In this document: positions 7,157-41,384 of the stretch, in pieces | How the letters are laid out: every line of letters begins with the position of its first letter | How positions within the stretch are numbered: position 1 is the stretch's first letter | Origin: Candidatus Nitrosopelagicus brevis | GTDB taxonomy: Archaea > Thermoproteota > Nitrososphaeria > Nitrososphaerales > Nitrosopumilaceae | Direction: 5' to 3' | Length of the DNA: 64,000 nt | NCBI RefSeq assembly: GCF_000812185.1 | Contig: NZ_CP007026.1 | Coordinates: 1,121,107 to 1,185,106 of the forward strand | Position numbers and translations under genes: made by a program | Notes under the pieces: generated by a model | Seen by the model: only the letters and a program-made list of their open reading frames with translations | The model's database searches: none | What the model was told of the DNA's origin: nothing

Positions 7157-7157
7157 T

Positions 7158-7790: not shown

Positions 7791-7795
7791 TAGAA

Positions 7796-10953: not shown

Positions 10954-10954
10954 A

Positions 10955-11554: not shown

Positions 11555-11576
11555 TGAATGCCGTTTTAAAGAATGG

Positions 11577-11609: not shown

Positions 11610-11635
11610 ACACACACGTTTCACATCTGGATATC

Positions 11636-13735: not shown

Positions 13736-13752
13736 CCAGTATATTATAGATA

Positions 13753-14034: not shown

Positions 14035-14119
14035 CCTTGAATTTTGCAGAATAATACAGGATGTTAATCTGAAATAAGTCTAAATCAACACTATTCATTT
14101 GTAAAATAATTTATTTTTT

Positions 14120-14329
14120 TTAAATCCTTTGTTTGCGTTCTTTGAGTTTGTCTCCTAATTCCTTTATCTCATTACGTAATTCTTCATAATTTTCTCCTAA
14201 GATGTCAATCTTGGATGGTTCTATCATCAGTACTTTTTGGAGTTCATTCATTTCTTTTTGTTTCTTGACGATTAATTCATCTATTTTTACTATCTCTTGT
14301 TTTGTCTTTTCAATATCATTTTCAGACAT
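14120..14329 (-). CDS. 69-aa coiled-coil protein
   Basis: A short Glu/Lys-rich protein predicted to be one long helical hairpin (EIVKIDELIVKKQKEMNELQ, then EELRNEIKELGDKLKERKQR). ATG 14329 is supported by a minus-strand TTTTTAATTAA box about 26 nt upstream. It is monocistronic, 35 bp after the rhodanese gene. Function unknown. Confidence 0.65.
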   Translation of the reverse strand: MSENDIEKTKQEIVKIDELIVKKQKEMNELQKVLMIEPSKIDILGENYEELRNEIKELGDKLKERKQRI

Positions 14330-14364
14330 ATCTAGTCTTGAATAGATTAATTAAAAATCGTATG

Positions 14365-15141
14365 CTATTTTTCTATAGGAAGATTCAAGTCATTTCCCCA
14401 TTCGCCCCAAGAGCCCAAATACACTTTGATGTTTTTGAATCCAATCTTTTTCAAAGAGAGATAGCTGTTTGCAGCACGATATGCACCCTGACAATATGTA
14501 ACAATTTCAGTCTCCTTATCTATTTGATATAGAGACTCTAATTCTTCATCAGACTTTAGTTTTCCAGAATCATCAAGATTGTTATTCCAATCTATGTTTT
14601 TTGCAGTAGGAATGTGGCCACCACGTGCTGCTCTAGGAGTAGTTCCATCAAATTCTTCAGGTGAACGAGCATCAATTATTGTAACTTTGCCAATATTTTC
14701 ATTTAATTCCTCAAATCCAATTATGATTGAAGGGTCAATTGTCGTGGTAAGTCTAGAAGGTTTGTAAATAGTAGATTCAGTTTCAGTCGGTTGATTTTCC
14801 CCAGTCCAGTTTGATAAACCACCATCTAACATTTGAACATCTGGATGTGAGAAATATAGACACATCCATACTCCTCTAGCTGCAAGCATTCCAGTGGTAT
14901 TATCATAGAAAATTATTTTTTTATTTTCATCGACTCCAGCATATGATAGAATTTTTCTCATATGTTCTCCAAAACTTATCAATCCTTTTTCAGATGTATC
15001 AGCCCAATGAAATGAAAATAGATCCAAACTTACAGCACCGGGAATGTGTGATTTAGAATAATCCTTGTAAGAGCGGGCATCTATTATGAGAACAGAATCA
15101 TCTTTGTAGATTTTTGCCAAATCCATAGTTGAGATAAACAT
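14365..15141 (-). CDS. Two-domain rhodanese (thiosulfate/3-mercaptopyruvate sulfurtransferase)
   Basis: Sulfurtransferase with two rhodanese domains in 258 aa. The N-terminal one (about 1-120) has VLIIDARSYKDYSKSHIPGA but lacks the catalytic cysteine. The C-terminal one has IIDARSPEEFDG and the active-site loop YCQGAYRA with the persulfide-forming cysteine. The ATG at 15141 is supported by a TATA-like box about 27 nt upstream. It is likely cytosolic and moves sulfane sulfur to acceptors. Donor specificity (thiosulfate or mercaptopyruvate) cannot be read from the loop alone. Confidence 0.92.
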   Translation of the reverse strand: MFISTMDLAKIYKDDSVLIIDARSYKDYSKSHIPGAVSLDLFSFHWADTSEKGLISFGEHMRKILSYAGVDENKKIIFYDNTTGMLAARGVWMCLYFSHPDVQMLDGGLSNWTGENQPTETESTIYKPSRLTTTIDPSIIIGFEELNENIGKVTIIDARSPEEFDGTTPRAARGGHIPTAKNIDWNNNLDDSGKLKSDEELESLYQIDKETEIVTYCQGAYRAANSYLSLKKIGFKNIKVYLGSWGEWGNDLNLPIEK

Positions 15142-26076: not shown

Positions 26077-26472
26077 TCAATCCATTTTTTCCTTTATTTT
26101 TTTAGATATTTTGTAAGATGCATATCCTGCAGCCAAAGATGCTGCCAGTCCGCCAATTACTGCTTGCTGTTTTCTATATGGTGAGTTTTTTTTAATTTTG
26201 TAAATGTAAGAACCAATTGCTGCGCCAGAAATGGCTGCACCTGCTAAACCGATTAACACTTCTTGTGCGTCATGGATTAGATGCCCCATTGGGTCTGTTC
26301 TTGGGTCTACCTTGTCGGTATGAACTGTAAATTTGTCTGCGTATTCTCGAATGTGTAAATTTCCTTTTCTGTATTGTTTTAGAGCGCCTTTTTTATCGCC
26401 AAGTTTTGTCTCTTCTGCACCCATCAGTACGACTCGTTTTAAATCTAAAGGAATCTCAATTTCTTGTACCAT
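26077..26472 (-). CDS. Membrane protein of unknown function, first gene of the UbiB operon
   Basis: 131 aa: a soluble N-terminal region (about 1-65), then two Gly/Ala-rich hydrophobic segments (VLIGLAGAAISGAAIGSYIY and AVIGGLAASLAAGYASY) and a basic tail. ATG 26472 is about 27 nt downstream of a TTCTTATAG box. Sharing an operon with the kinase suggests a role in the same membrane process. Confidence 0.65.
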   Translation of the reverse strand: MVQEIEIPLDLKRVVLMGAEETKLGDKKGALKQYRKGNLHIREYADKFTVHTDKVDPRTDPMGHLIHDAQEVLIGLAGAAISGAAIGSYIYKIKKNSPYRKQQAVIGGLAASLAAGYASYKISKKIKEKMD

Positions 26473-26541
26473 AGTGATCGATCCTAGACTGCCATTACTA
26501 TAAGAATTCTATGTAACGTAGAAATGCAATTAGTTCCGTTT

Positions 26542-26591
26542 TGATAGTAAAACTATCATTTCAGGCACAAAAAATTGCCCGAAATGATAGT
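26542..26591. promoter_or_regulatory. Triple TGATAGT/ACTATCA element with 15-bp inverted repeat
   Basis: TGATAGT (26542-26548), aaa, then ACTATCATTTCAGGC (26552-26566), a 10-bp loop, and GCCCGAAATGATAGT (26577-26591). The two 15-bp arms match at 14 positions. The first box can pair with the left arm in a smaller hairpin instead. It sits in the 223-bp divergent region between the 131-aa gene and the 26696 gene, as expected of an operator with three half-sites. Confidence 0.6.
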
Positions 26592-26695
26592 AAATTTTTA
26601 CTGCTGCAATACAGTATTCCTTAACATAAAATTACTATTGTTACTATATGGATACTGCTTAAATTCTACAATGCCGTAATTTGTTGTCATCAAAA

Positions 26696-26896
26696 ATGGG
26701 AAACGAAAAAGAACTGTTCAATGGAAATAGAATCAGCCTCTATGACTACAAAGACGAAAAGGGAAACGATGCTGTCATCTTAGAGTATGGTACGACAAAG
26801 CTATACATCTGGGATGAAGACTTTGACGAGCTAATCCATGGCATAAACTTCGTAAGAAGTAAAGCAAGTATGCCACGTGGAGACTTTTACAAGTGA
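26696..26896 (+). CDS. Small acidic protein of unknown function
   Basis: 66 aa from ATG 26696 (an in-frame TTG at 26681 is the alternative). It is acidic with aromatic beta-strand pattern (ISLYDYKDEKGND, KLYIWDEDFDELIHGI). A TTAAATTC box at 26659-26666 favours the ATG. Its stop overlaps the next gene's start by 4 bp (GTGA), so the pair is translationally coupled. Confidence 0.7.
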   Translation: MGNEKELFNGNRISLYDYKDEKGNDAVILEYGTTKLYIWDEDFDELIHGINFVRSKASMPRGDFYK

Positions 26897-27270
26897 CATC
26901 GCCATATTTGGAACCAAAACTTGCTCAAAAAGAATATCTGGAACAACGATACAAAATTCGAGCATGGATTAATGGTGGTCTTGACAAGTGGACATTAGCA
27001 CTGGAACAAAAAACTGACGGATTTGAGATAATCAGCAATCTCGTCAGATACTGTCACATCTACTTGAAAAGTTGTACAGACCTTCCAGAAACGACACACT
27101 TGATGCCGTTAGTCGAAGGATTTGTCGAAAAAATGGAGAAAAAGTATCCACTTGGAACTCCCGGACGAGTCAGACTGGTAGCGCAAATGATGTTTGCAAC
27201 ATACTATCTGCTAGATCCGGAGTTACACAAGGTTACAGAGGCTGGTAAAAATATCAGGTGTGAATCCTGA
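26893..27270 (+). CDS. 125-aa helical protein of unknown function
   Basis: GTG 26893 overlaps the previous stop. The protein is largely helical with AWINGGLDKWTLALEQKTDG near the start and VRLVAQMMFATYYLLDPELH near the end. No motif recognised. The coupled pair (26696-27270) ends 14 bp before the convergent end of the defence-like operon, so it may mark the island border. Confidence 0.7.
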   Translation: MTSPYLEPKLAQKEYLEQRYKIRAWINGGLDKWTLALEQKTDGFEIISNLVRYCHIYLKSCTDLPETTHLMPLVEGFVEKMEKKYPLGTPGRVRLVAQMMFATYYLLDPELHKVTEAGKNIRCES

Positions 27271-27284
27271 ATTCAATCCTTTTT

Positions 27285-28073
27285 TTATTTTTGTATATTT
27301 TCTTTGGTAAATTCGTATTTTTCCATTATTGAAATCTCTTTTTCAAATCCTAAACGTTTTACTTCTTGATTCACAATTTTTTCGTGTTCATCATATTCCT
27401 TTGAAGGGGGATAATATCCAGATTTCAAATATTTCTTGAGTATTAGTCCAATGTCTTCAACTGTAGTTACTTCATCATTATGTTCTTCTAACACATTGTA
27501 TTTTGTAGAATATTCAACTAATTCATGGATTATCACTCCTTTGATGTAATCATCATTTCTGCAATGAATCCGGTGATCAATTACAATATCGATATCAAAT
27601 TTGAGACTGGTTTCATCCTTAGAGTCAAGATAAAAATCTAGAAAACAGACTCCATCAGGATATTCTCTCATAGTACTAACAATATCAAAAAGATTATCAG
27701 GATTATTTCCAATTATTGGAGCCAAATTTTTCCATTCTTTTTCTGCATTTTCAATGTCTTGCAAATATTTGGTTTTTTTAAGATGAATAGGACCAGATTT
27801 GCGTCTTTTCGCTATGTTTTCTAATGTAGAAAAATAGATGGTTCCTGGAGATTTAAACGCGTTTTCATTAGGAAGTCTTTGTACAATATCATCAAGAGTT
27901 TTTAGCAAAAAATTACTCATTTTATTAGCAAGTTCACCTTCAAATTTTATCTCAACATTATTGAAAAAATTTTCAAGACTTAATCTATCTTGATTAGAGT
28001 TGTTTGAACAAAATGGACATGACTTTAATTGTCTTCCATATTTTTTTCCACAATGTGTACATTTTTGTGCCAT
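27285..28073 (-). CDS. Zinc-ribbon protein with HExxE-type motif, last gene of the defence-like operon
   Basis: 262 aa. A four-cysteine ribbon (CTHCGKKYGRQLKSCPFC) opens the chain. A C-terminal helix carries GVIIHELVEYSTKY followed by an acidic LEEHNDE; the HE...E and later His resemble, but do not match, the HExxH of zinc peptidases. It starts 6 bp after the PRTase gene. I infer a metal-binding accessory protein; peptidase activity is uncertain. Confidence 0.65.
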   Translation of the reverse strand: MAQKCTHCGKKYGRQLKSCPFCSNNSNQDRLSLENFFNNVEIKFEGELANKMSNFLLKTLDDIVQRLPNENAFKSPGTIYFSTLENIAKRRKSGPIHLKKTKYLQDIENAEKEWKNLAPIIGNNPDNLFDIVSTMREYPDGVCFLDFYLDSKDETSLKFDIDIVIDHRIHCRNDDYIKGVIIHELVEYSTKYNVLEEHNDEVTTVEDIGLILKKYLKSGYYPPSKEYDEHEKIVNQEVKRLGFEKEISIMEKYEFTKENIQK

Positions 28074-28079
28074 TTTTAA

Positions 28080-28829
28080 TCAGATAGTCCTACCTGCAAC
28101 AAAGACCCAAACAATTTCTGCACCATTATTTTTTAAAAGTTCAGCACATTTGCCTGCTGTATTTCCAGACGTAAGATTATCATCAACTAGGAGAATTTTC
28201 TTCCCGGTTAGATTAGTTTCTTCATCTACTGCAAAGAGATCATTAACTGCCTCAGAGATTTCTTCTTCTGTGGTTAATTTTTGAATTTTAATCTTTTTTG
28301 TTTTTTTGATACAATCAAGTAATTTAGTTTCATGTCCTTCATTTTGGAGAATTCTATGAATCTCATTAGCAAATGCATATGCATTTACATTTTGTAAATT
28401 ATCTTTTGAAAAACTAGGTACAGGAATTATAAAATCTGCTTCCAATAACGAATTATGGTTATTTTTGATAATATCTATAGCCACCATAGCCAAAGGTTCT
28501 GCAAATTCAATTCTATCTTTTAGATTTTGGATATGAGTTGTAAGTTGATCATTTTTTGGCTTTTTATCAAGTACATGTCTATTGTAATAATACCCAATTT
28601 GAAAAACTCCATCTGTAAACTTTAATCTTTCATGATTGTTTTTTCTGTGACAGATTTTATCAAGATTTGATCTTTTATCTAAACCACATATTTCACAAAT
28701 ATTCAGATTTACAGTGATATTATAGATCCCAGATGACAAAAAATCTTTGAATCTTTTGTCATATTGAAATAATTCATAATGATCTCCTTGGGATTTTATT
28801 TTCCATTCATTTTCAGATAAATTATTCAT
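28080..28829 (-). CDS. ComF-like phosphoribosyltransferase-fold protein
   Basis: 249 aa with a Cys/His cluster (CEICGLDKRSNLDKICHRK, about residues 43-62), then a ComFC-like core: ADFIIPVPSFSKDN and the PRPP loop ILLVDDNLTSGNTAGKCAEL (about 209-230), matching the family's DD-x(3)-TG-x-T pattern with Ser in place of Thr. ComF proteins are linked with DNA uptake and recombination in bacteria; enzyme activity is unproven. Here it sits 12 bp after the DUF1998 gene, so it is probably part of that machinery. Confidence 0.8.
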   Translation of the reverse strand: MNNLSENEWKIKSQGDHYELFQYDKRFKDFLSSGIYNITVNLNICEICGLDKRSNLDKICHRKNNHERLKFTDGVFQIGYYYNRHVLDKKPKNDQLTTHIQNLKDRIEFAEPLAMVAIDIIKNNHNSLLEADFIIPVPSFSKDNLQNVNAYAFANEIHRILQNEGHETKLLDCIKKTKKIKIQKLTTEEEISEAVNDLFAVDEETNLTGKKILLVDDNLTSGNTAGKCAELLKNNGAEIVWVFVAGRTI

Positions 28830-28841
28830 TTTAACTTAGAA

Positions 28842-30416
28842 TTAAGAAACAAATTGTTTTGCAAGGTTTCTTGTTAATAATGAATTTGGAATTACCCATG
28901 TTTTTGGGAATTCTCTTTGCCATGTTGGATGACAATTTGGATCACTATGAAAAACACATTTTGCACATCCATCCTCACAGTCATTACTACAATTTACCAA
29001 TTGAGTTTTTGATCTGAAAATCCATGTTTTTAGATTATCATCTAATGTAAGAAAATCTGCACCGCCTGCAGAAACATTCTTGTTTTCATAAATTAAGACT
29101 GCACCTAATTCGGTCAAAACTGTACCAGTAAAAGTTTCATTTTCTAATCCAGTGACAAGAGCAGCATTTTTTGTTAGAGAATGCTCAAACGTATGTAAGA
29201 TTTTGAATAATACAGAAAAATCTGAATCCTTATCTAATTTATCATCATCATCTTTTAGTTTAGAACAAAGCCATGAATACATTTCATTAATTTCTGATTC
29301 TGATGCAGTTTCTATATCTCCCAAAAATTTTTCTATTTGTGCCTTATCGGTGCCAGAAAGTTCTTGTTTAATTAAAAATTGTAAAACAATTGAAGTTAAT
29401 TTCTTTTTATCAAATCTTACTAAAATTCCTTTTCCCACAGTTTGATTAAGATAAACAGAATACTCATTTTGATTTTCTGAACGATTAAATTTTCTAAATA
29501 AATTAGGAACTGATGTTGCATCATAAGTTGTTGTTCCAAATATTACATCATTATTTTGAACTTGATCAATTTTTTCTATATTTGTTATTCCAAAAGAATT
29601 GATCAATATCTGTAATTCCTCATCAATTGAGGAGTCTTTTATTGACCATGAGGAATCTGAAGATTCAGGTATTTCATTTTTAGATTCGCCAAATAAAATG
29701 AAATTTTTTCTTGCAGCAATTAATTGAGAGCGATTTGAAGGTATAAGATCCATTTTCGTTGCGGTTCCAGTTCTTGCCTTACATACCTGACAAAATCCCA
29801 TAACAGGGTCCTCATGATTACCAGATTCACAGATCCATTTCCATTTACTACCTTGACTATTCATTTTCAATTTTATAGGACCATGATGGTTTCTACAAGA
29901 AAATGTTGGATCAGTAAAATTTTCCATCGGTGAAACGTCTTTAACATTTCCACATTTGTTACAAGAAAAATATCTTGGAATTTGTTCCAGTTCATTTTGT
30001 TTACAAATTGGACATTTCCAATCTGTCTTTTTATCTGGATTTAGTATTTCATAATGACCGCATCTTTTGCAGTTCAAACCTTTTGGAAAGCACTCTAGAT
30101 GTGCAACTTCAGGTTTCATTATTCGAATTTGTTCTTTTTTGATTAATGGTTTAGCTGAACTTTGAGAATATGTGGCCATTAGTGCCTGAATCTTAGTTTG
30201 TTTAGTAGGATCAGAGTCAGGAGCAGTATCAAATGTAGTTTCAATTGAGTACAACAATTCACCAATTAAACTTCTCAAAGTTTCATCAACAAATACATCG
30301 CGACCTTCGATAGATTCAGTTTTCCAAGCAGATGAATTTTCATATGAATAATTAACTTGATCAGGGAGATACTTCTGGAGAATTTCTCTTTTACCTAATT
30401 CACGAAACTCAGTCAT
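28842..30416 (-). CDS. DrmB-like DUF1998 protein
   Basis: 524 aa. The middle carries several CxxC knuckles (CKRCGHYEIL, CPICKQNEL, CNKCGN, CQVCKA) and the C-terminus the DUF1998 signature: a conserved acidic loop (SAGGADFLTL), the cysteine set CSNDCEDGCAKCVFHSDPNC and ending SLLTRNLAKQF. Separate DUF1998 proteins next to an SF2 helicase are the DrmB/DrmA core of DISARM. It overlaps the helicase gene by 8 bp. I infer a helicase partner that binds DNA through zinc. Confidence 0.78.
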   Translation of the reverse strand: MTEFRELGKREILQKYLPDQVNYSYENSSAWKTESIEGRDVFVDETLRSLIGELLYSIETTFDTAPDSDPTKQTKIQALMATYSQSSAKPLIKKEQIRIMKPEVAHLECFPKGLNCKRCGHYEILNPDKKTDWKCPICKQNELEQIPRYFSCNKCGNVKDVSPMENFTDPTFSCRNHHGPIKLKMNSQGSKWKWICESGNHEDPVMGFCQVCKARTGTATKMDLIPSNRSQLIAARKNFILFGESKNEIPESSDSSWSIKDSSIDEELQILINSFGITNIEKIDQVQNNDVIFGTTTYDATSVPNLFRKFNRSENQNEYSVYLNQTVGKGILVRFDKKKLTSIVLQFLIKQELSGTDKAQIEKFLGDIETASESEINEMYSWLCSKLKDDDDKLDKDSDFSVLFKILHTFEHSLTKNAALVTGLENETFTGTVLTELGAVLIYENKNVSAGGADFLTLDDNLKTWIFRSKTQLVNCSNDCEDGCAKCVFHSDPNCHPTWQREFPKTWVIPNSLLTRNLAKQFVS

Positions 30417-33400
30417 CTTGTTTACCTCTAAAACTTCGAAGTGAATTTAAAATACTATATTGTATTTTTGGTTTTACTTTTACTCTATCATCAGATTCAT
30501 GTAAAGTCGAAGTAAGCATTTTTTCATCATGAAAACGTTTTGATGTAAAGTCACTTGGAGATGATGCTTGTTTAACTTTCATATATGCTTGAACTTGTAA
30601 TTGATTTAGAATTTCTTTCCAGCCTTCATCTTTAACCCAATCTTTTTTGTAGATTTTTGTTAGATCTTTTTCAAATTCTCCAGATTCAATCATTTTATCA
30701 AATGCTTCAAAAGCTTTTGAAGAATTCATTACAGTTGAATCATTTACTTGTTGACTCAAAATTGTAGCTAATGTTACATTTGGTAATGACAAATCAATCG
30801 CATAAGAATTCATTACATTAATTGGCATTGGTTCATACCATTTTTCTAAATTACCTAATGTTTTTTCCAAATTTTGATAAATTAGATTATCACGTGGGAT
30901 ATCTGGACGTATGTGGATAAATATTAGACTAGGAACGTTTCCCCTAGCAGTTCTTCCTGCTACTTGAGCAAGCTCTACAAAACTATTAGGAACACCAAAA
31001 AAATGCATGATGTTAATATTTGGAAAATCAACACCTTGACCAAGAACACTTGTTGTAATCAAAACATCAAGTTCATTTTTTTCTACCTGTGATAGTAAAT
31101 CAAAAAGTTCTTTTCTTGTATTTCGTCCTGAACCAAATTTTATATTATTTGGATCAATTGGATATCCATCATCATATGCTCTATTAGGTAAACTTTGATA
31201 GATAGAAATTCCATCAAATTTTCTTCGTACATAGATTGTCTGTATTTTGTAGAACTTTTCCATAGAAGGATCTGGTTTGACTATATTTTTTATCGCTTCA
31301 AATCCCGATAATGTCATTCGTTCTACGGAATCAAGAGTACTTGCAATTATTGGTTCAACAATTACAAATCTATGCCTAATTTCTTGTTGGCTTTTAGTAA
31401 AATATTCTGCCCAGAAATTTTCTTCTTTAGGAAAAATTGTTTCTTCATTTGTTTTCCAACCAGTAAGATTTGTAATTAATTCATCCTGATTTGCAATAGT
31501 TGCAGTGGCTCCTAAATGCTGAATAGCATTTGTAATACCATATTTTTCATTTGTAACTTTTAGTAATGAAAGAAAATGACCGAAGAGATTTCCAGATGTG
31601 CCTGAAAGAGTATGAACCTCATCAAAAACAATCAAAGATGGATTTGAATGGAATTTTGTTTTATTGTCCATATCAGTTTGACAGTTTTTACATTTGTGAA
31701 TTTCGTCATTTTGATTCTTTAAAATTAATGGTTGAACAAGATTACATTTTGGACATCTCTTAGATGATACACCAAACATGGTATGAGACCATGAACTAGT
31801 TGTTAATGAGAACCAAAATTTATCTGGTGTTCCAACTACAACACTTGGACAATACCATTCAACTTCACTACTAGTGACAAAAACAAATTCAAATTTTTCA
31901 TCACAAGAAGCACATTTTGGAATTAACCTGAAATCATTAATTTTTTCAACAATAATTTTTTTCTCTTTACATTTTGGGCATTTTCTTATCAGATTAAGAG
32001 GTTCTTCTCCTGAAACTGATGCAGGTCGTAAAATAGCATTTGGATCAATGTCACCATCACTATATTGACCAGTATAGTAACCAATTGATATTTCAATTCC
32101 TCGTTTATTCAAATGATAGAAATATCTAACCATATCATTGAATTGTGCTGCATTTAGTGCCTTTGTTGGAAATGTGATTAGTGTTGAAGTACCATCTAAT
32201 TCATTGAAAGTTTTATGAATCACTGAACAAACATAGAAAACTAATGATTTTCCAGAATCAGTTGGTGCTCTAACAATAAATGGAGAGGATTCTTTATTCA
32301 ATAATTTTTTAATAAATTTCTGTATAGCCTCAAATTGAAATTTGTATAATTCATTAAAATTCGGGTTTGCATCCTTAATTGCACGAAATATTTCTAAAAG
32401 TATAGAAATTTTTCCATTCTTAAGAGACTCAATCTCAGCATCATCTAACATAGTTAAACTATGTAAAAGATTTTCTTCAGAATCCAGCATAAAATCAAAA
32501 TTACTGTCTGATTTTACAGGCGTAATTCTTGCATGATCAATTATTCCAATAGGGTTAGCAAATAATTCATTTCCTAATGATGATATTTTTGGTATTGTGT
32601 TAAGTGAAGAACATTGTTTGATTGCAAGTTTCAATTCGGCGGAATTTACTTCATTATTACCATCATCTATGAGTAATTTTCCATCATTTGCCTTAACAAT
32701 CAACTGAGTTCCAAAAAAAGCAAAAGGAAGAACAGTACTTGGATAAGGTGTTGAGGGTATTTTTCCTGGTTTAGGTGCGGTTAGATTCATTTTTGAATTA
32801 TTTTCTATTCTAATTGTAATTTCATAAAATCCATCTATTCCAATTTCTCTAGCAGAAATTCGTAATTCTCCTCCAAGTTTCTTTGCTTTTATCTCAATTG
32901 CTTTTTTTGTACTATCATTTCGTTTTGTTTGTTCTTTATCATCTTCATCATAAAATGTCTCATTTTCAATTTTTGGTATTTCAATTGGAATTAATTTTTC
33001 TTTTGAAAGTAAGCTTTCAATTGATTCATTACCAGTAAATGAAAAATTTTGTACATCTTCAATTCCTTGTTTATGTTCTTTACCAGAAATACTAATTGAT
33101 TGTGTGGAGTTTAATCTATTCTCGGTAACTAATCCTTTTCCAGATTTTTGATAATTAATTTCTACTTCTTCCATCTTTTTTACATTTTTTAGAATAGGAC
33201 GTAGAAATGAAAAATTTGTCTCAATTTTATTTTCTTTTGTAGATTTAATCAAAAATTGTACTTGCTGATGGAAAGGAAATGATTTATTTTTCATTCCCCA
33301 ATTCTGTAAACATCTTTCATTGTATTCTTGTGGAACAAGTAGACCACAAATTGATGCTCGTCTTAATCCTTTTTCATCAATATCCAATTGCCCATCTAGA

Positions 33401-33537
33401 ACCATTGATCGTAAAAATTCACTTGTAAGATTATCCAGGTATTGAGTCTCAGACGTACTAGAGTCCATTTTTTGATGATCAATTAAAGATGTAATATTTG
33501 CCTGTACGACATCAGTAGGAGATTGTGAATTAGACAT
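30409..33537 (-). CDS. DrmA-like SF2 helicase with zinc-finger insertions
   Basis: 1042 aa. After a 400-residue N-terminal region of unknown fold come the SF2 motifs: Walker A IVRAPTDSGKSLVFY (about 420-434, TDSGKS rather than TGAGKT), motif II VFDEVHTLSG (about 633-642), LGATATI, TTSVLGQGVDFP and motif VI QVAGRTARG (about 857-865). Two insertions between motifs I and II carry CPKC...CASC and CPKC...CKNC zinc pairs. The size and DUF1998 neighbour fit DISARM DrmA; MrfA-like repair helicases are the main alternative. Overlaps of 8 bp with both neighbours. Confidence 0.8.
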   Translation of the reverse strand: MSNSQSPTDVVQANITSLIDHQKMDSSTSETQYLDNLTSEFLRSMVLDGQLDIDEKGLRRASICGLLVPQEYNERCLQNWGMKNKSFPFHQQVQFLIKSTKENKIETNFSFLRPILKNVKKMEEVEINYQKSGKGLVTENRLNSTQSISISGKEHKQGIEDVQNFSFTGNESIESLLSKEKLIPIEIPKIENETFYDEDDKEQTKRNDSTKKAIEIKAKKLGGELRISAREIGIDGFYEITIRIENNSKMNLTAPKPGKIPSTPYPSTVLPFAFFGTQLIVKANDGKLLIDDGNNEVNSAELKLAIKQCSSLNTIPKISSLGNELFANPIGIIDHARITPVKSDSNFDFMLDSEENLLHSLTMLDDAEIESLKNGKISILLEIFRAIKDANPNFNELYKFQFEAIQKFIKKLLNKESSPFIVRAPTDSGKSLVFYVCSVIHKTFNELDGTSTLITFPTKALNAAQFNDMVRYFYHLNKRGIEISIGYYTGQYSDGDIDPNAILRPASVSGEEPLNLIRKCPKCKEKKIIVEKINDFRLIPKCASCDEKFEFVFVTSSEVEWYCPSVVVGTPDKFWFSLTTSSWSHTMFGVSSKRCPKCNLVQPLILKNQNDEIHKCKNCQTDMDNKTKFHSNPSLIVFDEVHTLSGTSGNLFGHFLSLLKVTNEKYGITNAIQHLGATATIANQDELITNLTGWKTNEETIFPKEENFWAEYFTKSQQEIRHRFVIVEPIIASTLDSVERMTLSGFEAIKNIVKPDPSMEKFYKIQTIYVRRKFDGISIYQSLPNRAYDDGYPIDPNNIKFGSGRNTRKELFDLLSQVEKNELDVLITTSVLGQGVDFPNINIMHFFGVPNSFVELAQVAGRTARGNVPSLIFIHIRPDIPRDNLIYQNLEKTLGNLEKWYEPMPINVMNSYAIDLSLPNVTLATILSQQVNDSTVMNSSKAFEAFDKMIESGEFEKDLTKIYKKDWVKDEGWKEILNQLQVQAYMKVKQASSPSDFTSKRFHDEKMLTSTLHESDDRVKVKPKIQYSILNSLRSFRGKQDD

Positions 33538-34927
33538 TTTTCACTACCTCTTTTGAAAAAATATGACTGAGTTTTCTGAATAATCCTTCTGGTGCGTTAA
33601 TCCATCCTTCCAGTGTTGTGTTTTTAACTAAATCTTCAAACCAATTTCTAAGGTATGACTCCTTTGAGGGATCACTGAGTAATTTTTTGATGAAATCTAT
33701 ATCATCAATATTTTCAGTTAAACATTCAGTTACAAATGAGAGATCTGCATCATTTGAAATTTCTACACATTCTGCAAGTGTTTTTTTAATATCTAATTTT
33801 TTACCAGCACGATAAAGTATTTTGTGAGCAGATGCTTCAAATTCTCTGATATTTTCGATTAGAGCAATAGGAATATACAATTTATTTTCTTCATGTACAG
33901 GAATAGCACGAGAAGAATCATTGTCTACAAACAAAATAGAGTAAGAGTCATTTTCAAAAGTTACTTTTAATTCGGTTTTAGTTTTAGTAATTTTTCCATT
34001 TAATTTTTCTATTAAATTACTGATTGTTTGTATTTTTTCAGATTCGATATCTGAGAGCGAAATTAATGGACTTCCACTGGCCTTTCCATTATCACCTGGA
34101 AGAGTAACAAAATCTTCGCATTTTAAAAGATTAATTTTATTTGCTTTTAAGAAAACTTTGAGTAATTCAAAATATGTTATTTTGAAATATAACATTCCAT
34201 ACAAAATAACTTCATTTGGTCTAAGACGTGTTAGAGAATTGAAAATATCATCAGGTATCATTCCTAATGAATTTAGTTTTATTGTGCCAAATCCTAACAT
34301 TTTATGATCTGCCCAATAGACTGTACGATTTGTGAAAGTCCTTGATGCTAGATTGAATGCTGCACGTTTATCTACTAAATGAAGTTCTTCTTCAGCACCT
34401 AGATAGTAGTATTCGTCGTTTCCTTGATTTTCACATTTTATTATTTGATGTTCTCTCAGAGGTACACCAATCGAGTTTTCTGGATTTTTTATGTAAATCC
34501 ATCTTCGTGTTTTAGGATCAAGGAATCTGTGTTCTCGTCCTTTTGGTAGTTTTACAAATCTATGACGACCAAGTGATAGTGTTTCTTTTGTGTAACCTGA
34601 AAAAACATTTCGTACGTGTGTTAAGAGATCATGTACAGTTACATCTATTTTCCTAAGAAAATCAATTGTTTGATCAACAATTTCTAAAGGAACTCTAAAT
34701 CCAGCAAGTCTGAATTCACTGTTCATTTTACCAGAATTTAATTCAACAAACTCCTGTATGTCTTTGTATTTTTTATAATCTAGTCTAGTTAAAATTAAGA
34801 ATTGATCTGTTCTAGTTTGAACTATATCTGGTTCCGTCTCATGAAAACAATTATTGCAATACTCTAGAGGATTCAAGCTGATCAATAGATCTCTCCTAGA
34901 ATATGAACATTGTGCGTGATTAGACAT
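33530..34927 (-). CDS. 465-aa protein of unknown family in the helicase operon
   Basis: The N-terminus has a possible zinc site (CSYSRRDL, then CNNCF). The middle contains KLPKGREHRFLDPKTRRW and a dense beta region, the C-terminus is helical (about 360-465). I looked for the HxKx4D motif of phospholipase-D nucleases (as in DrmC) and did not find it. It overlaps DrmA by 8 bp and the upstream gene by 1 bp (TAATG). Its position is where a system-specific component would be expected. Confidence 0.7.
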   Translation of the reverse strand: MSNHAQCSYSRRDLLISLNPLEYCNNCFHETEPDIVQTRTDQFLILTRLDYKKYKDIQEFVELNSGKMNSEFRLAGFRVPLEIVDQTIDFLRKIDVTVHDLLTHVRNVFSGYTKETLSLGRHRFVKLPKGREHRFLDPKTRRWIYIKNPENSIGVPLREHQIIKCENQGNDEYYYLGAEEELHLVDKRAAFNLASRTFTNRTVYWADHKMLGFGTIKLNSLGMIPDDIFNSLTRLRPNEVILYGMLYFKITYFELLKVFLKANKINLLKCEDFVTLPGDNGKASGSPLISLSDIESEKIQTISNLIEKLNGKITKTKTELKVTFENDSYSILFVDNDSSRAIPVHEENKLYIPIALIENIREFEASAHKILYRAGKKLDIKKTLAECVEISNDADLSFVTECLTENIDDIDFIKKLLSDPSKESYLRNWFEDLVKNTTLEGWINAPEGLFRKLSHIFSKEVVKNV

Positions 34928-35517
34928 TATTTCATGTCCTCCTTATCTTTATCACTAAACTCTGATTTTCTAGTCCAGTCTCTTTTACGCCTGCGTTCTG
35001 CATGGTATTTGTCCCAGTCTATACCTCCATTGGGTTTTCTATACTTCAAAATGTCAATATCAGTAAATTTGTCTAAAAATTTATTTTTGATTTTATCTTT
35101 CTTCTTTTCTAATTCATCCCAATATTCCGTTAAATTCCGTTTTTCTAATTCCCTATCTATTTCGGATTCAAAGTTTTCCATTTCCTTTAGAGATCTACAA
35201 AGGTCTGAACTGGTAAGCTTTGAAAGAGCTTTACGTATCTTTTCCTCATCAGTAGTTTTATCGTAAGGTGCACCTGCATATTTTGATTCATGGTCTTCAT
35301 ATTCACAATCATCATAACCAAAACGACCAACTGCACCATGACAAATAGAACATTTTCCAAGAAGTATTGGTGATCCTGGAGAAAGTTTATCTCTAATTTC
35401 TGCACCAACACTATGAAATTTTGCTTCAGATGATGAAGATTCTTTTAATTTTGTAATAACAACTTTGTCGCATTTGAAACAATAAGCAGGACCATTAACA
35501 ATCATTTTCTTCCTCAC
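34927..35517 (-). CDS. Zinc-finger protein with charged coiled-coil tail
   Basis: 196 aa. An N-terminal knuckle (CFKCDK) pairs with CSICHGAVG about 40 residues later, followed by an acidic DDCEYEDHESKY. The second half is a Lys/Glu-rich helix (about 90-150) ending in a basic RRRKRDWTRK. ATG 35517 overlaps the upstream gene by 23 bp; ATG 35505 would reduce this to 11 bp. Likely nucleic-acid-binding. Confidence 0.7.
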   Translation of the reverse strand: MRKKMIVNGPAYCFKCDKVVITKLKESSSSEAKFHSVGAEIRDKLSPGSPILLGKCSICHGAVGRFGYDDCEYEDHESKYAGAPYDKTTDEEKIRKALSKLTSSDLCRSLKEMENFESEIDRELEKRNLTEYWDELEKKKDKIKNKFLDKFTDIDILKYRKPNGGIDWDKYHAERRRKRDWTRKSEFSDKDKEDMK

Positions 35518-35776
35518 CTACTAAATGATAATAAAAAGAGAGCCAAGTTTGTGCGGCTTCTCTTTCTCTTTGACTTAATCTTCCAAATAATTTTCGTGTT
35601 GCATCTTTAATCCGTGAATCATCTTGTCTGCAAGATTCACAAAATTGTTCTTCCTTAACGATTTCAGAATCCTCATTTTCTGTCTTTAATTGTACTCTAC
35701 ATTGATTACAAACTCCAGTTTGTAGACTAGTTTTACTTGGCTTAGACAGTGTGCACTTGCAATTTTCACAGATCAA
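35495..35776 (-). CDS. 93-aa Cys-rich protein
   Basis: Three cysteine pairs in the first half (CENCKC, CNQCRV, CESCRQ) suggest one or two zinc ribbons; the second half is a helix with RLSQREREAAQTWLSFYYHL. It starts on the base after the stop of the upstream gene and overlaps the next. Function unknown. Confidence 0.7.
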   Translation of the reverse strand: MICENCKCTLSKPSKTSLQTGVCNQCRVQLKTENEDSEIVKEEQFCESCRQDDSRIKDATRKLFGRLSQREREAAQTWLSFYYHLVGEEENDC

Positions 35777-36172
35777 TTACATCTCCACCTCTTGACGTAT
35801 CTTAGAAAAGCAATCTAGACAGAAACAACTCAATAAATCAGCATAATCTACTTCATCACCACCTAGAGCTAACCCACAATCTTTACAGTGCAAATAGATT
35901 GGAACAAAATCAACTTGATGCCAATCAGGATTATGCATTGGCCACTTTTCAACTCTGGCAGGAGTTTTTGGTCCAAATCCAATCTGGATATAAGAGATCT
36001 TCTCGCCTCTTCGAATCTGTTTTAATGGTAATTGATGAATTTCCCATAGCTCATCAGTGTGTTTGAGCCCATTTTTACTACAAAAACCACAAATCTGTTT
36101 TTGTTGATGTGATTCCCATAGCTTTTGACTGTGTTCTTCACTATCTTTATGACATATTTGGCACATACTCAT
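35777..36172 (-). CDS. 131-aa multi-zinc-finger protein
   Basis: Four CxxC-like pairs: CQICHKDS and CGFCSKN, each followed by a LWE-H stretch (LWESHQQ, LWEIHQL) suggesting two duplicated C2-H type fingers, then CKDCGLALGG with CFCLDCFSK. It overlaps the 46-aa gene by 4 bp. Probably nucleic-acid- or protein-binding. Confidence 0.7.
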   Translation of the reverse strand: MSMCQICHKDSEEHSQKLWESHQQKQICGFCSKNGLKHTDELWEIHQLPLKQIRRGEKISYIQIGFGPKTPARVEKWPMHNPDWHQVDFVPIYLHCKDCGLALGGDEVDYADLLSCFCLDCFSKIRQEVEM

Positions 36173-36309
36173 TTCTTACGCACCTCAATTGGTAACACAA
36201 ATGCCACATCGGCACCTTCTTCACCAAGATAATAGACACTAACTATTGCGATTCGTTTTAGGTGAAAATCTATTATGGCATTTCGCTCATAATTTATTTT
36301 TTTATCCAT
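36169..36309 (-). CDS. 46-aa protein between nuclease and zinc-finger genes
   Basis: ATG 36309 shares its A with the TAA of the nuclease gene (TAATG), and its TGA overlaps the next ATG (ATGA). The peptide is mostly beta-like (MDKKINYERNAIIDFHLKRI, then VSVYYLGEEGADVAFVLP). Coupling on both sides makes it very likely real despite its length. Confidence 0.65.
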   Translation of the reverse strand: MDKKINYERNAIIDFHLKRIAIVSVYYLGEEGADVAFVLPIEVRKK

Positions 36310-37010
36310 TACTTACACACCTCACATTCAGGATGAACTTTTCTAAATTCATCCAAAATGAAATTTATTTCATCAAGAAATTCATCTCTGTGTTTAACAA
36401 AAACTTCAACAGTTCCATCTTCTGCTGCAGATATGGTAACTAGTTGTCCAACAGGTTTACCAAGAACATCTTCAACTAAAAGTGAGTAAGCAGCTTCTTG
36501 TAAAAACCACTTTTTGCAATAAACTTCTTTCTTCTTTGTTCTAGAAGACTTGAAATCTATTATAGATAAAACACCATTATATTCAGCCAATACATCTAAT
36601 TTTCCAGCAAAACCATATTTCTCAGAAATCATTGGAAACTCCATGGCCATAATATTATCAATTTTATTTAATTCTGATTTGACATTTTGGAACATTGAGT
36701 AAACTAGAAGATTGTTTTCAAATTGACATGTACATTCGTTTTTTAAATAAGATTCACATATTTTATGAAATAAATTACCTCTTTGTATTGCATCATGTAA
36801 TGTCTTCTTTGCTATATCTTCACCAACTCTTTTCCTCCATCTATCTAATGAATCATGATCAGTAGCCAATACTTTCAAAATAAAAGAAATGGAGTGGTAT
36901 ACTCCAGTTCCATTACTGTACATTCTACTCCCATGAATATTTTGTACAGTTGGTTCTGTGTACTCCACTCCTTGAGGGATCGAAGTGTGGGTGAATTTTC
37001 TACTGACCAT
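36309..37010 (-). CDS. RecB/Cas4-like PD-(D/E)XK nuclease
   Basis: 233 aa from ATG 37010; an ATG at 37094 would overlap the upstream gene by 95 bp. The nuclease core is complete: His in RGNLFHKICESYL, the aspartate in FAGKLDVLAEY (about 132-142), the D-x-K in LSIIDFKSSR (about 146-155) and the QEAAYSLLVED helix. Cysteines in ECTC and at the extreme end (ECEVCK) could form an Fe-S site as in Cas4/AddB. It is the second gene in the operon, so DNA cleavage is probably part of the system. Confidence 0.82.
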   Translation of the reverse strand: MVSRKFTHTSIPQGVEYTEPTVQNIHGSRMYSNGTGVYHSISFILKVLATDHDSLDRWRKRVGEDIAKKTLHDAIQRGNLFHKICESYLKNECTCQFENNLLVYSMFQNVKSELNKIDNIMAMEFPMISEKYGFAGKLDVLAEYNGVLSIIDFKSSRTKKKEVYCKKWFLQEAAYSLLVEDVLGKPVGQLVTISAAEDGTVEVFVKHRDEFLDEINFILDEFRKVHPECEVCK

Positions 37011-37422
37011 TTGCACCCACCGTTCTGTTGTGTTCCTGAATTTCCATCTCAAGATAAGACTCTGGTATGTAACAAGTCTCCAATGAGACCCCATTGCCTA
37101 ATTTCCAATCGACTTCAATTCTAGGAGTTTGGATTTGTAATCCATTTTCTGCAGAAACTATTGATTTGAGCACAGGTAGAGACTTTGCAGTATCTATAGT
37201 TGGTCCAGGTATTTCTAAGACAAGAAATGAGTTTCGAGATAATGGTGGTTGATTGAAATCAACAACCATGAAACCTCTATTCACATATTCTTTCTTAGCA
37301 TATTCGACCATCCTTCGCTTTTGAGCAACAAGCTCTTGACGTGTGATTGATCGAGGCTCATCTTCCCAATTCAATGGATTCTGGTTATTTTCTTTGTTCA
37401 CGGTTATTCTTAACCGAAGCAT
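37000..37422 (-). CDS. First gene of the defence-like operon, unknown function
   Basis: 140 aa from ATG 37422; GTG 37401 (codon 8) is an attractive alternative because the TTTTTAAG box at 37423-37431 is about 26 nt upstream of it. The protein has a basic helix (QELVAQKRRMVEYAKKEYV) and a beta-rich second half (FLVLEIPGPTIDTA, RIEVDWKLGNG). Its last 11 bp overlap the nuclease gene. No family recognised. Confidence 0.7.
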   Translation of the reverse strand: MLRLRITVNKENNQNPLNWEDEPRSITRQELVAQKRRMVEYAKKEYVNRGFMVVDFNQPPLSRNSFLVLEIPGPTIDTAKSLPVLKSIVSAENGLQIQTPRIEVDWKLGNGVSLETCYIPESYLEMEIQEHNRTVGANGQ

Positions 37423-37431
37423 CTTAAAAAC
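37423..37431 (-). promoter_or_regulatory. Probable TATA box of the defence-like operon
   Basis: Minus-strand GTTTTTAAG abuts ATG 37422, too close to serve it, but is about 26 nt from GTG 37401, which would then be a leaderless start. No other TATA-like box is evident inside the operon. Confidence 0.45.
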
Positions 37432-37563
37432 TCTTTGGCAATTTTTTTTCTAATAATGGGTAAATTAATTTCACAATGGTTAGGCACAATCTAGGCGTGA
37501 AAGTGAAATTATTACATTGATCGATGCTAATTTCTCCATTTTTTGGTTATTTCTGACTAAACA

Positions 37564-37570
37564 CTATAAT
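37564..37570 (+). promoter_or_regulatory. TATA box of the RHH protein / restriction endonuclease genes
   Basis: CTATAAT is centred about 27 nt before ATG 37593, supporting that start over the in-frame ATG 37569, which overlaps the box itself. Confidence 0.5.
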
Positions 37571-37592
37571 GTTAGTTATTTTCTTAAGTAAT

Positions 37593-38909
37593 ATGGTAGA
37601 AAAAAATGATCAAATTGAAGGAAATGGTAGACTATTTGAGCTCTTTTTAGAAAAAGAGGTCTGGACCATGCTAGAAAAATTGGTGAGAAGCGGAACATAT
37701 GATTCTGAAAAAGAGGTTATCATTCAGGCCATAAAAAATCTCCATGAAAGAACAAAGGCAAGAGAAAATGGGAGTAAGGGTGAAATGTCGGAATCTTTGT
37801 CAACTGATTTAAAACAAATTTACGGATTTGATTTTGAAGAAAGAAAAAAATTATACTGGAATGAAAATAAGAAGATAGTCAGATCACCTAGATACTTGTT
37901 AAAAATTCTCCCCGAATTTAGTTTACCACATTTAACAGAAGTTGAACAAGAACAGGATGTAAAATTAGAGGTATTTGATGAAAAATTAGCAACACAAAGA
38001 CAACTATATGGTAGTGAATCAATTGGACTAAATTGGTATTTTAATAATCGTATACTTCCAGTCAAACTAGCAGCAATTGTACTTATTCAAAAAATAAATA
38101 AAGAAGAAAATGCTTGGATAGAACTTGACGAATTAAAAAAGGACTTTCTAACATATGTTAAACAATTTGATTTTATAATAAGAAATGTAATAGATGAATT
38201 AAAAGATATAATTTCAACATTTCCAGCATCATCTGGAGATAAAAACTTTGAAAGAAAAGAAGGAAGATTCGCACATACATTTGTTGGGAAATTAGTTAAA
38301 AAGAAAGAAAATAAATTGTATGATACATCTGATGGGCACTATCTAACTGGCGCTCTATTTGAAATGGGATTAATCAAAGCTAAGAGAGTTGTTAAAAAGA
38401 GATGGGGTAAAACAATGACAGGAAAATCATATAAAAATATAACAAATATTGTTTATGTTTCTATAACAGAACTTGGATTAGAATTTGCTGGATTAAACAA
38501 TCCATTATTAGATTTTTTTGATAAAGTAGAATTAGCTGAAGATAATCAAGTATATACTTATGAGTGGGATAATGATGCACCAATTTTTTCACATGAAGAA
38601 CAAAAATTTTACCTTGATAAGATTTTACCAAAATTTGAATTTGAACATAGTTTTGTGGACGAAATGATATCTATTGGACGTTTTGAGAAGAGTGGAGACA
38701 TAAAGGAATTATTTGAGAGACAATATTTGGAATGGCTAAAATTGAATTATCCTCAAGATTATCAGGAACTTACAGGCAAAGATGATAGAAAACTGAGTGA
38801 TTTTGTGAGAATGCGCTCATTAGTAATAATGTCCAGATTAGTCGAATTAGGCATATTTGTTAAAGAACCAGGCTCAAAATTCGGACCATATTATCTAAGA
38901 GATAAATGA
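37593..38909 (+). CDS. Large protein with N-terminal ribbon-helix-helix-like domain
   Basis: 438 aa. Residues about 15-55 (LEKLVRSGTYDSEKEVIIQA) have the pattern of a CopG/ParD ribbon-helix-helix DNA-binding domain. The remaining 380 residues are mixed alpha/beta, with winged-helix-like segments (DGHYLTGALFEMGLIKAKRV and SFVRMRS-like C-terminus) but no catalytic motif I recognise. It is divergent from the defence-like operon and 27 bp upstream of the endonuclease gene, so it may regulate one or both. Confidence 0.65.
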   Translation: MVEKNDQIEGNGRLFELFLEKEVWTMLEKLVRSGTYDSEKEVIIQAIKNLHERTKARENGSKGEMSESLSTDLKQIYGFDFEERKKLYWNENKKIVRSPRYLLKILPEFSLPHLTEVEQEQDVKLEVFDEKLATQRQLYGSESIGLNWYFNNRILPVKLAAIVLIQKINKEENAWIELDELKKDFLTYVKQFDFIIRNVIDELKDIISTFPASSGDKNFERKEGRFAHTFVGKLVKKKENKLYDTSDGHYLTGALFEMGLIKAKRVVKKRWGKTMTGKSYKNITNIVYVSITELGLEFAGLNNPLLDFFDKVELAEDNQVYTYEWDNDAPIFSHEEQKFYLDKILPKFEFEHSFVDEMISIGRFEKSGDIKELFERQYLEWLKLNYPQDYQELTGKDDRKLSDFVRMRSLVIMSRLVELGIFVKEPGSKFGPYYLRDK

Positions 38910-38936
38910 GAAAAGTGATTTTTGAATCAATAAGAA

Positions 38937-39893
38937 ATGGCTGATGATGGAGGTGAACAGGATGTTAGGAATATACTTGATCATTCAGAATTCACCTTTG
39001 AGAATAGACTTTACAAAATAATTACGAATGCAAAACCATATCCTGAAACTAAGACTGATTTTTACATACTTGCAAGAGACCTAGATGATGAAACAGAGAG
39101 AGAATTCAAGATATCGTACAAAAAACCATCATATTCTTTCATTGAAAATAAGATACAGCCACATAGGATTAGAATGATCTATGGTGAAGATTGGTCAGAG
39201 ATTCTAAAATCTCAAATATCTCAAACAAACACCGAACAAGAAAACATTCATTGGATGAAGAAGAGACCCAATGAACATCTAGTTGATTCTTTCAATAATT
39301 TTCCTGTAATTGATTTCAATAAGAAAAAAATCGTGCTTGGATGGAGATATGAGATTGAACAATTAGATGCACCAAAAACAGGAACTAGATTACATTCTGG
39401 AATGATTGAACAAGACATATCATCACAAGTTTTTTGGGGAGAGGGTTGTAGCGATGAAATGCGAGATGCTATAGTGAATGGCGATATAATTCCAGATAGT
39501 GGAATTCCAGATTTTATATTGATTAGAGACCCAGAAGAGATTCAAAATGCAAATGATGTATTCAATCATATCGAGGATATCAGAGAACACGCAAGAGAAC
39601 ATAATGAAATGCGTGCAGGTTTTATTACTCAGAACAATAGATGGAATGAAAACGGCAACCGTTGGAAAACGGAAGGACTTTCTCGTGCATTTGCAGTTTG
39701 GATAAAATGGAATGTTATAGATGGTAATCTTAGAGGAAGACCTGTGTTTAATCATCCACTTGAAAGAACATCTGGAGATGTAATACAGAATCTCAAGGAT
39801 TGTCTAGAAGAAATGGATATTACATATGAATCAAATTTTGCTTTTGAATTATTACGAGATTGTCTTACGGAAGATACAGTTTCAATAGGATGA
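38937..39893 (+). CDS. Probable type II restriction endonuclease (PD-(D/E)XK type)
   Basis: 318 aa. The segment about 36-68 (ETKTDFYILARDLDD, EREFKISYKKPSYSF) looks like a PD-(D/E)XK core: an aspartate after KT, a hydrophobic strand, then E-F-K and Ser/Lys, as in many restriction enzymes. The assignment leans on context: its 3' end overlaps the convergent C5 methyltransferase gene by 12 bp. The recognition sequence cannot be read from this. Confidence 0.68.
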   Translation: MADDGGEQDVRNILDHSEFTFENRLYKIITNAKPYPETKTDFYILARDLDDETEREFKISYKKPSYSFIENKIQPHRIRMIYGEDWSEILKSQISQTNTEQENIHWMKKRPNEHLVDSFNNFPVIDFNKKKIVLGWRYEIEQLDAPKTGTRLHSGMIEQDISSQVFWGEGCSDEMRDAIVNGDIIPDSGIPDFILIRDPEEIQNANDVFNHIEDIREHAREHNEMRAGFITQNNRWNENGNRWKTEGLSRAFAVWIKWNVIDGNLRGRPVFNHPLERTSGDVIQNLKDCLEEMDITYESNFAFELLRDCLTEDTVSIG

Positions 39894-40964
39894 TTTCTTA
39901 CCTTTGTAATACGGCATGATGCATTCTGCTACCTTTTGCATCAATAATGGTGGAACCGCATTTCCAATTTGCTTGTAAATTGAAACCACATCACCAGAAA
40001 ATGGATGATCCTTTGGAAATCCTTGGATAGCAGCACACTGTCTCCAAGACAAACGAACCAAACTTTTTGAGATATCTTTTTCATGTTTCTTTCTAAATTC
40101 CGCCCACTCACTATCTTTTGGTCTATTTTCACCTGTAACATCTACATTCCACATTTTCTTTGAGGATGGGTGTGCAGGAACTTGACTAGCTTCGGCAGGA
40201 ATTGTAAAACTTGTTTCATTCCATTTTCGAATTCTATTTCGAGACATGTATCGTGATGAAAAAAAGTCCTTGCGTTTTCCTTTTGCTTCTCTAAAAACTT
40301 CATCATCTTTTAGTGGGATATCTTTGATTCCAAATTCTTCCATTGTGACATATGGTTTCAAACCTTTTCCATGAGTAGGTTTTGGGAATTTAAACTCAAA
40401 ATTAATGTCTTTTCTGACACCAACTATGATTATTCTTTCTCTATCTTGTGGTATTCCAAAATCTTTTGCGCTGTGTAATTGGTAACTGACATTGTAACCT
40501 TTTCCAACCTCAGATAATTCTTTGATTATCGCTTCTGCGACCTTTCCAAGCTTTACAATTTTACCATTATGGAAATATTTTGCTTTACTTTTCTCACCAA
40601 TTGTAACAAGACCTTTTACATTTTCGCCGATAAAAAATTCAGGATTTACTAGAGAAATTGCTCTTTTCAATTCTTGATATAGACTGTTTCTTTTGTCTTT
40701 TACCTCTCGTGGTCCTGCAAGACTGAATCCCTGACATGGAAAACCACCAGTTATGACATTTGCATTTCCAAAATTTTTAATTTTTTCAACATTTCCCTTA
40801 TGAACAATTTTCTTTCCTGAACCATTCTCAAACCTACTCCTTAGTGTTTCACAAGCATCAGGATTGTTATCATTTGCAAATACTAGATCAAATCCTGCAG
40901 ACGTAAATCCAAGAGAATCTCCTCCTCCACCTGCAAAGAGTGTAGCAACGGTTGGTTTTTTCAA
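39882..40964 (-). CDS. DNA (cytosine-5) methyltransferase
   Basis: 360 aa with ordered C5-MTase motifs: I (TLFAGGGGDSLGFTSAGFD), IV with the catalytic cysteine (TGGFPCQGFSLAG, about 72-84), VI (FIGENVKGL), VIII (PQDRERIIIVGVR), a target-recognition region (about 200-290) and X (QIGNAVPPLL). It methylates a cytosine in a specific site, most likely as the protective half of a restriction pair with the convergent endonuclease. Class-2 DISARM also has a C5 methylase, so a second role with the helicase operon is possible. Confidence 0.93.
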   Translation of the reverse strand: MKKPTVATLFAGGGGDSLGFTSAGFDLVFANDNNPDACETLRSRFENGSGKKIVHKGNVEKIKNFGNANVITGGFPCQGFSLAGPREVKDKRNSLYQELKRAISLVNPEFFIGENVKGLVTIGEKSKAKYFHNGKIVKLGKVAEAIIKELSEVGKGYNVSYQLHSAKDFGIPQDRERIIIVGVRKDINFEFKFPKPTHGKGLKPYVTMEEFGIKDIPLKDDEVFREAKGKRKDFFSSRYMSRNRIRKWNETSFTIPAEASQVPAHPSSKKMWNVDVTGENRPKDSEWAEFRKKHEKDISKSLVRLSWRQCAAIQGFPKDHPFSGDVVSIYKQIGNAVPPLLMQKVAECIMPYYKGKKSSY

Positions 40965-41028
40965 GATTATACATATTGTATTCTAATTGATTTTAAATTA
41001 TCCGGGGCGTTTTGTACACCACTTTACA

Positions 41029-41235
41029 TCACTTTTCTCTTTCAATAATTGATGCAACTAACTGAATCATCATAGTAAACTCCTCAATGTTTCCCTTACA
41101 GATTTCCAACATCTCGTCTCTCTCAGGCGAGGCTGGCTGTTTTTGTACATTCTCAACTATTCCTGTCTCTCTAATACGATTAGTCTCAAACCATTCCTGT
41201 AACATCTTCAAGTCATTAGCAGAATCTTCTTGCAT
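41029..41235 (-). CDS. 68-aa helical protein
   Basis: ATG 41235 is chosen over GTG 41250, as a minus-strand GATTATTTAG box lies about 27 nt upstream. The peptide has LKMLQEWFETNRIRE and EEFTMMIQLVASIIEREK helices and one cysteine. Function unknown. Confidence 0.55.
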   Translation of the reverse strand: MQEDSANDLKMLQEWFETNRIRETGIVENVQKQPASPERDEMLEICKGNIEEFTMMIQLVASIIEREK

Positions 41236-41384
41236 GAATGTACATTTCACTCCTAGCTAAATAATCTTCATTTGAAATACCTATAACCAAACCATGCATA
41301 CACAATGATGGAAGAGCTTTAGTAATTTTCTTGTAAAAGAACTGAAACTACTGTCTCTGCTCACATTTTTTAAAAAATATTTGA

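Follow-up and report, generated by a model that had tools for sequence, protein, structure and literature searches.

DISARM-family defence loci are characterized by two zinc modules in the RecA1 domain of the helicase and by a separate gene encoding the DUF1998 protein (PMC12458937), and DISARM class 2 comprises DrmA, DrmB, DrmC, the C5 methylase DrmMII and DrmE. Here, we describe a cluster of eleven genes in Candidatus Nitrosopelagicus brevis, located in a window of 64,000 nt (the whole stretch of DNA that was analysed, bases 1,121,107-1,185,106 of a single-contig genome of 1,232,128 bp that is 99.5% complete). The cluster is an accessory operon of the DISARM family in a defence hotspot; it has no phospholipase D (PLD) gene, and a phosphoribosyltransferase (PRTase) of the ShosT/PsyrT type is found in the DrmC slot. 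The locus shares with class 2 DISARM the order of DrmA and separate DrmB, a C5 methylase in the island and the defence-island setting. It differs in the genome-wide lack of DrmC and PLD, in having no DrmE match, and in the presence of the gene 7 (g7) family, the PRTase, g11 and an MGME1-like exonuclease. As DrmC is missing, the locus is not DISARM by strict definition, but a DISARM-family variant.

The PRTase is of the same family as those of ShosTA, PsyrTA and RqlHI (RqlH is a RecQ-like helicase fused to a PRTase), is likewise found beside a helicase, and has an intact phosphoribosyl pyrophosphate (PRPP) loop. Unlike in those systems, the window genome has no DprA-like partner, the helicase is a DrmA, and the PRTase lies within a DISARM-like operon. 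ARMADA, BRIGADE and TALON (PMC12458937) are also defence operons with a YprA-family helicase, some of them with PD-(D/E)XK nucleases. However, their DUF1998 domain is normally fused to the helicase, and library scans of the island proteins revealed no BrxHII/PglX, deazaguanine or TPR-CSD/TBP genes. The eleven genes are encoded on the minus strand, reading from 37422 to 27285:

37000-37422, minus strand: g1, 140 aa, opens the operon, no relative found
36309-37010, minus strand: g2, 233 aa, PD-(D/E)XK exonuclease of the MGME1 / phage exonuclease type
36169-36309, minus strand: g3, 46 aa, no assigned family, translationally coupled
35777-36172, minus strand: g4, 131 aa, zinc-type Cys/His protein
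35495-35776, minus strand: g5, 93 aa, Cys-rich protein
34927-35517, minus strand: g6, 196 aa, orphan, N-terminal part Cys-rich and C-terminal part charged
33530-34927, minus strand: g7, 465 aa, no known family
30409-33537, minus strand: g8, DrmA-family SF2 helicase, 1042 aa
28842-30416, minus strand: g9, DrmB (DUF1998/OB-CON canopy protein), 524 aa
28080-28829, minus strand: g10, ComF-like PRTase of the ShosT/PsyrT type, in the DrmC position
27285-28073, minus strand: g11, 262 aa, orphan, zinc-ribbon-like CxxC pairs at the N-terminus

All eleven reading frames are open, and the start and stop relations of the ORFs confirmed the first-pass annotation of a one-strand cluster whose neighbours overlap, abut or are at most 12 bp apart. 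The overlaps are 11 bp between g1 and g2 (g2 ATG at 37010), 1 bp between g2 and g3 (TAATG), 4 bp between g3 and g4 (ATGA), 23 bp between g5 and g6, 1 bp between g6 and g7, and 8 bp both between g7 and DrmA and between DrmA and DrmB. Genes g4 and g5 abut, and gaps of 12 and 6 bp separate DrmB from the PRTase and the PRTase from g11, respectively. The G+C content is 29-33% in the operon and 33-38% in most 2 kb blocks to its left. We infer that the eleven genes constitute one operon.

The first-pass annotation had proposed a DrmA-like SF2 helicase with zinc inserts and a DrmB-like DUF1998 protein, and both assignments held. The g8 product matched the PADLOC DrmA model PDLC02573 over its full length (residues 10-1034, 1.6e-186, 620 bits), and g9 matched the DrmB model PDLC02581 at 2.6e-65. 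PDLC02573 was evidently built from the relative in genome G203, which it scores near-perfectly at 2467 bits; the PADLOC score of the window DrmA is thus partly circular, and the assignment was therefore based on architecture, the NCBIfam ranking and the DrmA tree. In NCBIfam, DrmAS ranked first at 64.6 bits (DpdJ, 48.6), far under its cut-off of 950 bits, consistent with a divergent DrmA branch. Two four-Cys modules are present in RecA1 (C520, C523, C542 and C545; C595, C598, C616 and C619). These eight residues, positioned between Walker A (K430) and the DEVH motif (639-642), are invariant in four relatives, and the helicase motifs are intact. DUF1998 is carried by the separate gene g9. The locus has the DrmA helicase, the separate DrmB and the two RecA1 zinc modules of DISARM.

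A helicase of this family could also belong to a DNA-repair operon around an MrfA-type enzyme. When g8 was compared with defence libraries, as the first-pass annotation had suggested, DrmA was nearest in both PADLOC and NCBIfam, but a profile search of solved structures did not separate the two, with YprA/MrfA (1.9e-18) scoring about equal to, or slightly above, DrmA (2.4e-16). The presence of an exonuclease is reminiscent of MrfAB, although the enzyme in the window is of the PD-(D/E)XK type, and neither the RecA1 zinc inserts nor the location of this accessory gene set in a defence hotspot fits a repair operon. We consider this explanation very unlikely, and rejected it because DUF1998 is a separate gene, not fused to the helicase, and the distribution of the operon is accessory, not core.

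The distribution was apparent from the island of approximately 14.6 kb in which the operon is found, between conserved genes at 26077-26472 and 41029-41250:

26473-41028, no strand: variable defence island/hotspot between the two conserved genes
37569-38909, plus strand: divergent 446 aa protein, N-terminal part ParD-like (ribbon-helix-helix)
38937-39893, plus strand: type II restriction endonuclease-like, PDLC03438 6.3e-33
39882-40964, minus strand: C5 cytosine DNA methyltransferase

In the sibling genome G015, the same two flanking genes are 100 bp apart, a near-empty site, and in G027, G018 and G014 the corresponding interval contains about 6, 10 and 16 kb of other cargo. Sibling cargo includes restriction genes, a Cas4-like nuclease and C5 methylases. 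The near-empty site and the differing cargo indicate that the operon is accessory, and not a core repair locus. Conservation of the gene set as core genes in all relatives, which the first-pass annotation had named as counter-evidence, was not observed, as the set is absent from the other sampled genomes of the genus. The methylase and type II restriction endonuclease at 38937-40964 had been missed in that annotation; among the sequences compared, the closest relative of the methylase is the one near DrmA in G358.

The slot directly after DrmB, occupied by DrmC elsewhere, holds the PRTase and g11 in the window. The PRTase had been annotated as ComF-type, in agreement with its Pfam matches (Pribosyltran 1.1e-9, ComF 4.6e-9), and its best defence-library matches were PsyrT (1.2e-13) and ShosT (7.9e-12). 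The zinc Cys residues and the conserved PRPP loop (VDDNLTSGNT) are intact. No PLD motif had been seen in the operon at first, and this absence extends to the complete genome, which gave no match to PF13091 (12 of 14 control genomes were positive) or to the DrmC model PDLC02600 (positive controls). The complete genome likewise contains no member of the DprA family PF02481 (positive controls), while the two PRTase relatives that stood out most clearly in the class adjoin ShosA/DprA-like genes (2e-57 and 5e-52). The window PRTase is thus of the ShosT type but lacks the customary antitoxin, and it is positioned in the DrmC slot. A literature search found no description of a DISARM system with a PRTase. 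Pairs of a ShosTA-type PRTase and a DprA-like protein were observed in ammonia-oxidising archaea (L104 2864-4536 and L105 2145-3844).

The genome-wide lack of DrmC, and the finding of this form in only one genome of the genus, might suggest a decaying, non-functional DISARM that has lost its nuclease. We regard decay as improbable, given that the eleven frames are open and tightly coupled, that the helicase, exonuclease and PRTase motifs are intact, and that so small a genome would hardly be expected to retain dead genes.

The DrmA type of the window is found in 5 of 400 genomes of the class, the window genome included, and is absent from the other same-genus genomes sampled, several of which are incomplete. 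The thaumarchaeal DISARM loci of G203, G358 and G100 encode orthologous DrmA (28-37% identity), DrmB and g7, but there a PLD DrmC still follows DrmB directly, and the PRTase, g11 and g1-g6 are missing. PLD directly follows DrmB in G330 (N. salaria BD31), two haloarchaea and a Haladaptatus plasmid as well. A DISARM-like cassette with McrBC (PMC11090510), represented here by L037, shares DrmA, DrmB and g7 with the window and has also replaced DrmC, but with an EVE/McrB-like GTPase (NTVD signature, AAA_5 2.9e-15) and a McrC-like PD-(D/E)XK protein instead of a PRTase. A C5 methylase is present in G203, G358 and L037, and an SPPY-type methylase in G100. The L037 locus (4455-14901) is on a contig filed under a Patescibacteria bin, and is probably a mis-binned thaumarchaeal contig. 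Viral contigs contained no relative of DrmA, the PRTase or g2, and plasmids contained distant DrmA relatives only and no PRTase relative. Within the genus, conventional DISARM of the order methylase-DrmA-DrmB-PLD was seen (L120 7129-14365; sibling G025), and a cut-off conventional DrmA is located in the hotspot of G005.

In the DrmA tree, (G100_PLD,(window_PRT,(G358_PLD,(G203_PLD,L037_McrBC)))), with supports of 89/92, 94/96, 99/99 and 96/96, the PLD-less members (window and L037) are nested among PLD-bearing ones. The simplest reading of this topology would be that DrmC was replaced at least twice, separately in the lineage of the window and in L037.

Serratia DrmAB is known to load on single-stranded DNA (ssDNA) ends or tails and to translocate. 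By homology, the window DrmAB may do the same on incoming, unmodified DNA, and the coupled exonuclease g2 would degrade the ssDNA that is exposed. The PRTase in the DrmC slot could act as a second effector, restrained by DrmAB together with g11 as long as DrmAB has not engaged foreign DNA; once released, it might harm nucleotide pools or DNA and bring replication or the cell to a halt, an action like that proposed for the RqlH/ShosT PRTase. The adjoining C5 methylase would most likely mark self DNA. Several precedents are consistent with this model, but are not proof for the window operon. DrmC is dispensable for DISARM, and 'mix-and-match' nucleases were proposed by the structural authors (PMC9142583); the PRTase domain of RqlH is required for genotoxicity, which is checked by the RqlH helicase domain and RqlI (PMC4670107); and a DprA-PRTase pair gives phage protection (PMC9122126).

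A defence function of the operon is likely. As to its composition, we see about an even chance that it is an accessory anti-mobile-element operon in which a DISARM variant kept DrmAB, uses g7 as a clade-specific partner and replaced DrmC. We further infer that the eleven genes form one system with the PRTase as a DrmAB-controlled effector. The more specific proposal, that a ShosT-type PRTase toxin, and not a nuclease, is under the control of DrmAB, with DrmAB and g11 in the role of the DprA antitoxin, is tentative and rather unlikely as it stands.

Several observations weigh against these proposals. No second locus with the composition of the operon was found that would show the PRTase, g11 and g1-g6 to be conserved together with DrmAB. 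The proteins g1, g3, g6 and g11 are orphans, and the single-sequence fold of g11 (pLDDT 36) is unusable. Support for the placement of the window in the DrmA tree is moderate (94/96 and 89/92), and the methylase, being convergent with the type II restriction endonuclease, may belong to a unit with that enzyme. Relatives of g2 are common in the family without this DrmA, and relatives of g4 and g5 recur, likewise without it, in sibling hotspots. The latter findings would suit a composite directon, in which a DISARM-like core (g7-DrmA-DrmB, alone or with the neighbouring methylase), an independent toxin-antitoxin-like pair of PRTase and g11, and an independent g1-g6 exonuclease/zinc cluster were joined by hotspot insertion. 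Hotspots do gather modules, and PRTase relatives elsewhere occur in two-gene pairs with ShosA. However, the genes overlap or nearly abut throughout, the PRTase is exactly in the DrmC slot, the genome has no ShosA/DprA left, as a free-standing ShosTA would need, and a core without PLD would have no cutter. Because g2, g4/g5 and PRTase relatives each occur in other settings, the composite origin keeps about one third of the weight. The first-pass conclusion of a DISARM-related system with its own composition is supported by the DrmA and DrmB assignments, the non-core distribution and the lack of PLD; its picture of the locus is modified by the methylase next door, and the eleven genes form a putative single system.

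If DrmAB does control the PRTase, the system would work through nucleotide poisoning or an abortive arrest, and the position after DrmB would accept any of three exchangeable effectors, DrmC, McrBC or PRTase. The DISARM core works in the laboratory without DrmC, for which authors have guessed that host PLD nucleases fill in. In the window, DrmAB occurs naturally in an operon whose DrmC slot carries another type of effector, and the complete genome has no detected PLD; a sister lineage has McrBC in that slot. These loci make the idea of a swappable effector directly testable. The operon also links DISARM to PRTase toxin systems, and shows that a defence hotspot is present in one of the smallest, mobile-element-poor genomes of open-ocean archaea.

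Together with DrmA and DrmB, g7 defines a thaumarchaeal DISARM subclade: it is present in all five members (5/5) and was detected in none of eight other DISARM loci (0/8, searched to E 10). Members of the g7 family are also found standing alone in many genomes from three further Nitrosopumilaceae genera, beside CdvC/thymidylate kinase or Hef-type helicase/dCMP deaminase/PolB genes (for example L072 8859-10193 and L074 8702-10045, with others in L055-L071). These lone genes suggest a probable recruitment of g7, either out of a cellular role or into one. A structural model of moderate confidence (pLDDT 64) matched nothing significantly among PDB and viral structures. We rejected g7 as a leucine-rich repeat (LRR) protein, as the weak LRR profile matches look spurious, and as DrmE, for which PADLOC gives no assignment.

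The nuclease g2, first annotated as RecB-like, is a PD-(D/E)XK exonuclease (Pfam PDDEXK_1 7e-7; MGME1 in PDB 1.6e-10; phage exonuclease phrog_298 4e-51), with the catalytic D-F-K and Q-x3-Y motifs and an upstream Asp kept in 22 homologues. The three small Cys-rich proteins noted earlier correspond to g4, g5 and g6, and library scans assigned no known family to g1, g6, g7 or g11. Relatives of g4/g5 are found in the same hotspot of G005, G016, G019 and G007, with g5 relatives beside g4 relatives, and a g2 relative in that of G018. The sibling hotspots L098 and L099 contain small zinc proteins similar to g4/g5, in one or two copies, amid many small uncharacterised genes.

In the operon at L100 (5180-12572), a g2 relative is accompanied by a GHKL-like ATPase and a PIN-like protein, and it faces a homologue of the ribbon-helix-helix protein encoded at 37569-38909 of the window. 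The sibling hotspot L102 (5897-14986) encodes a response regulator, a GHKL ATPase, a g2-like exonuclease, a Cys-rich protein and a PIN-like protein, along with a C5 methylase, a restriction endonuclease and Vsr, and is possibly a further defence operon that uses the g2 exonuclease family. Finally, two small overlapping genes without family (71 and 125 aa) lie on the plus strand at 26681-27270 of the window, inside the island and convergent with the end of the operon.
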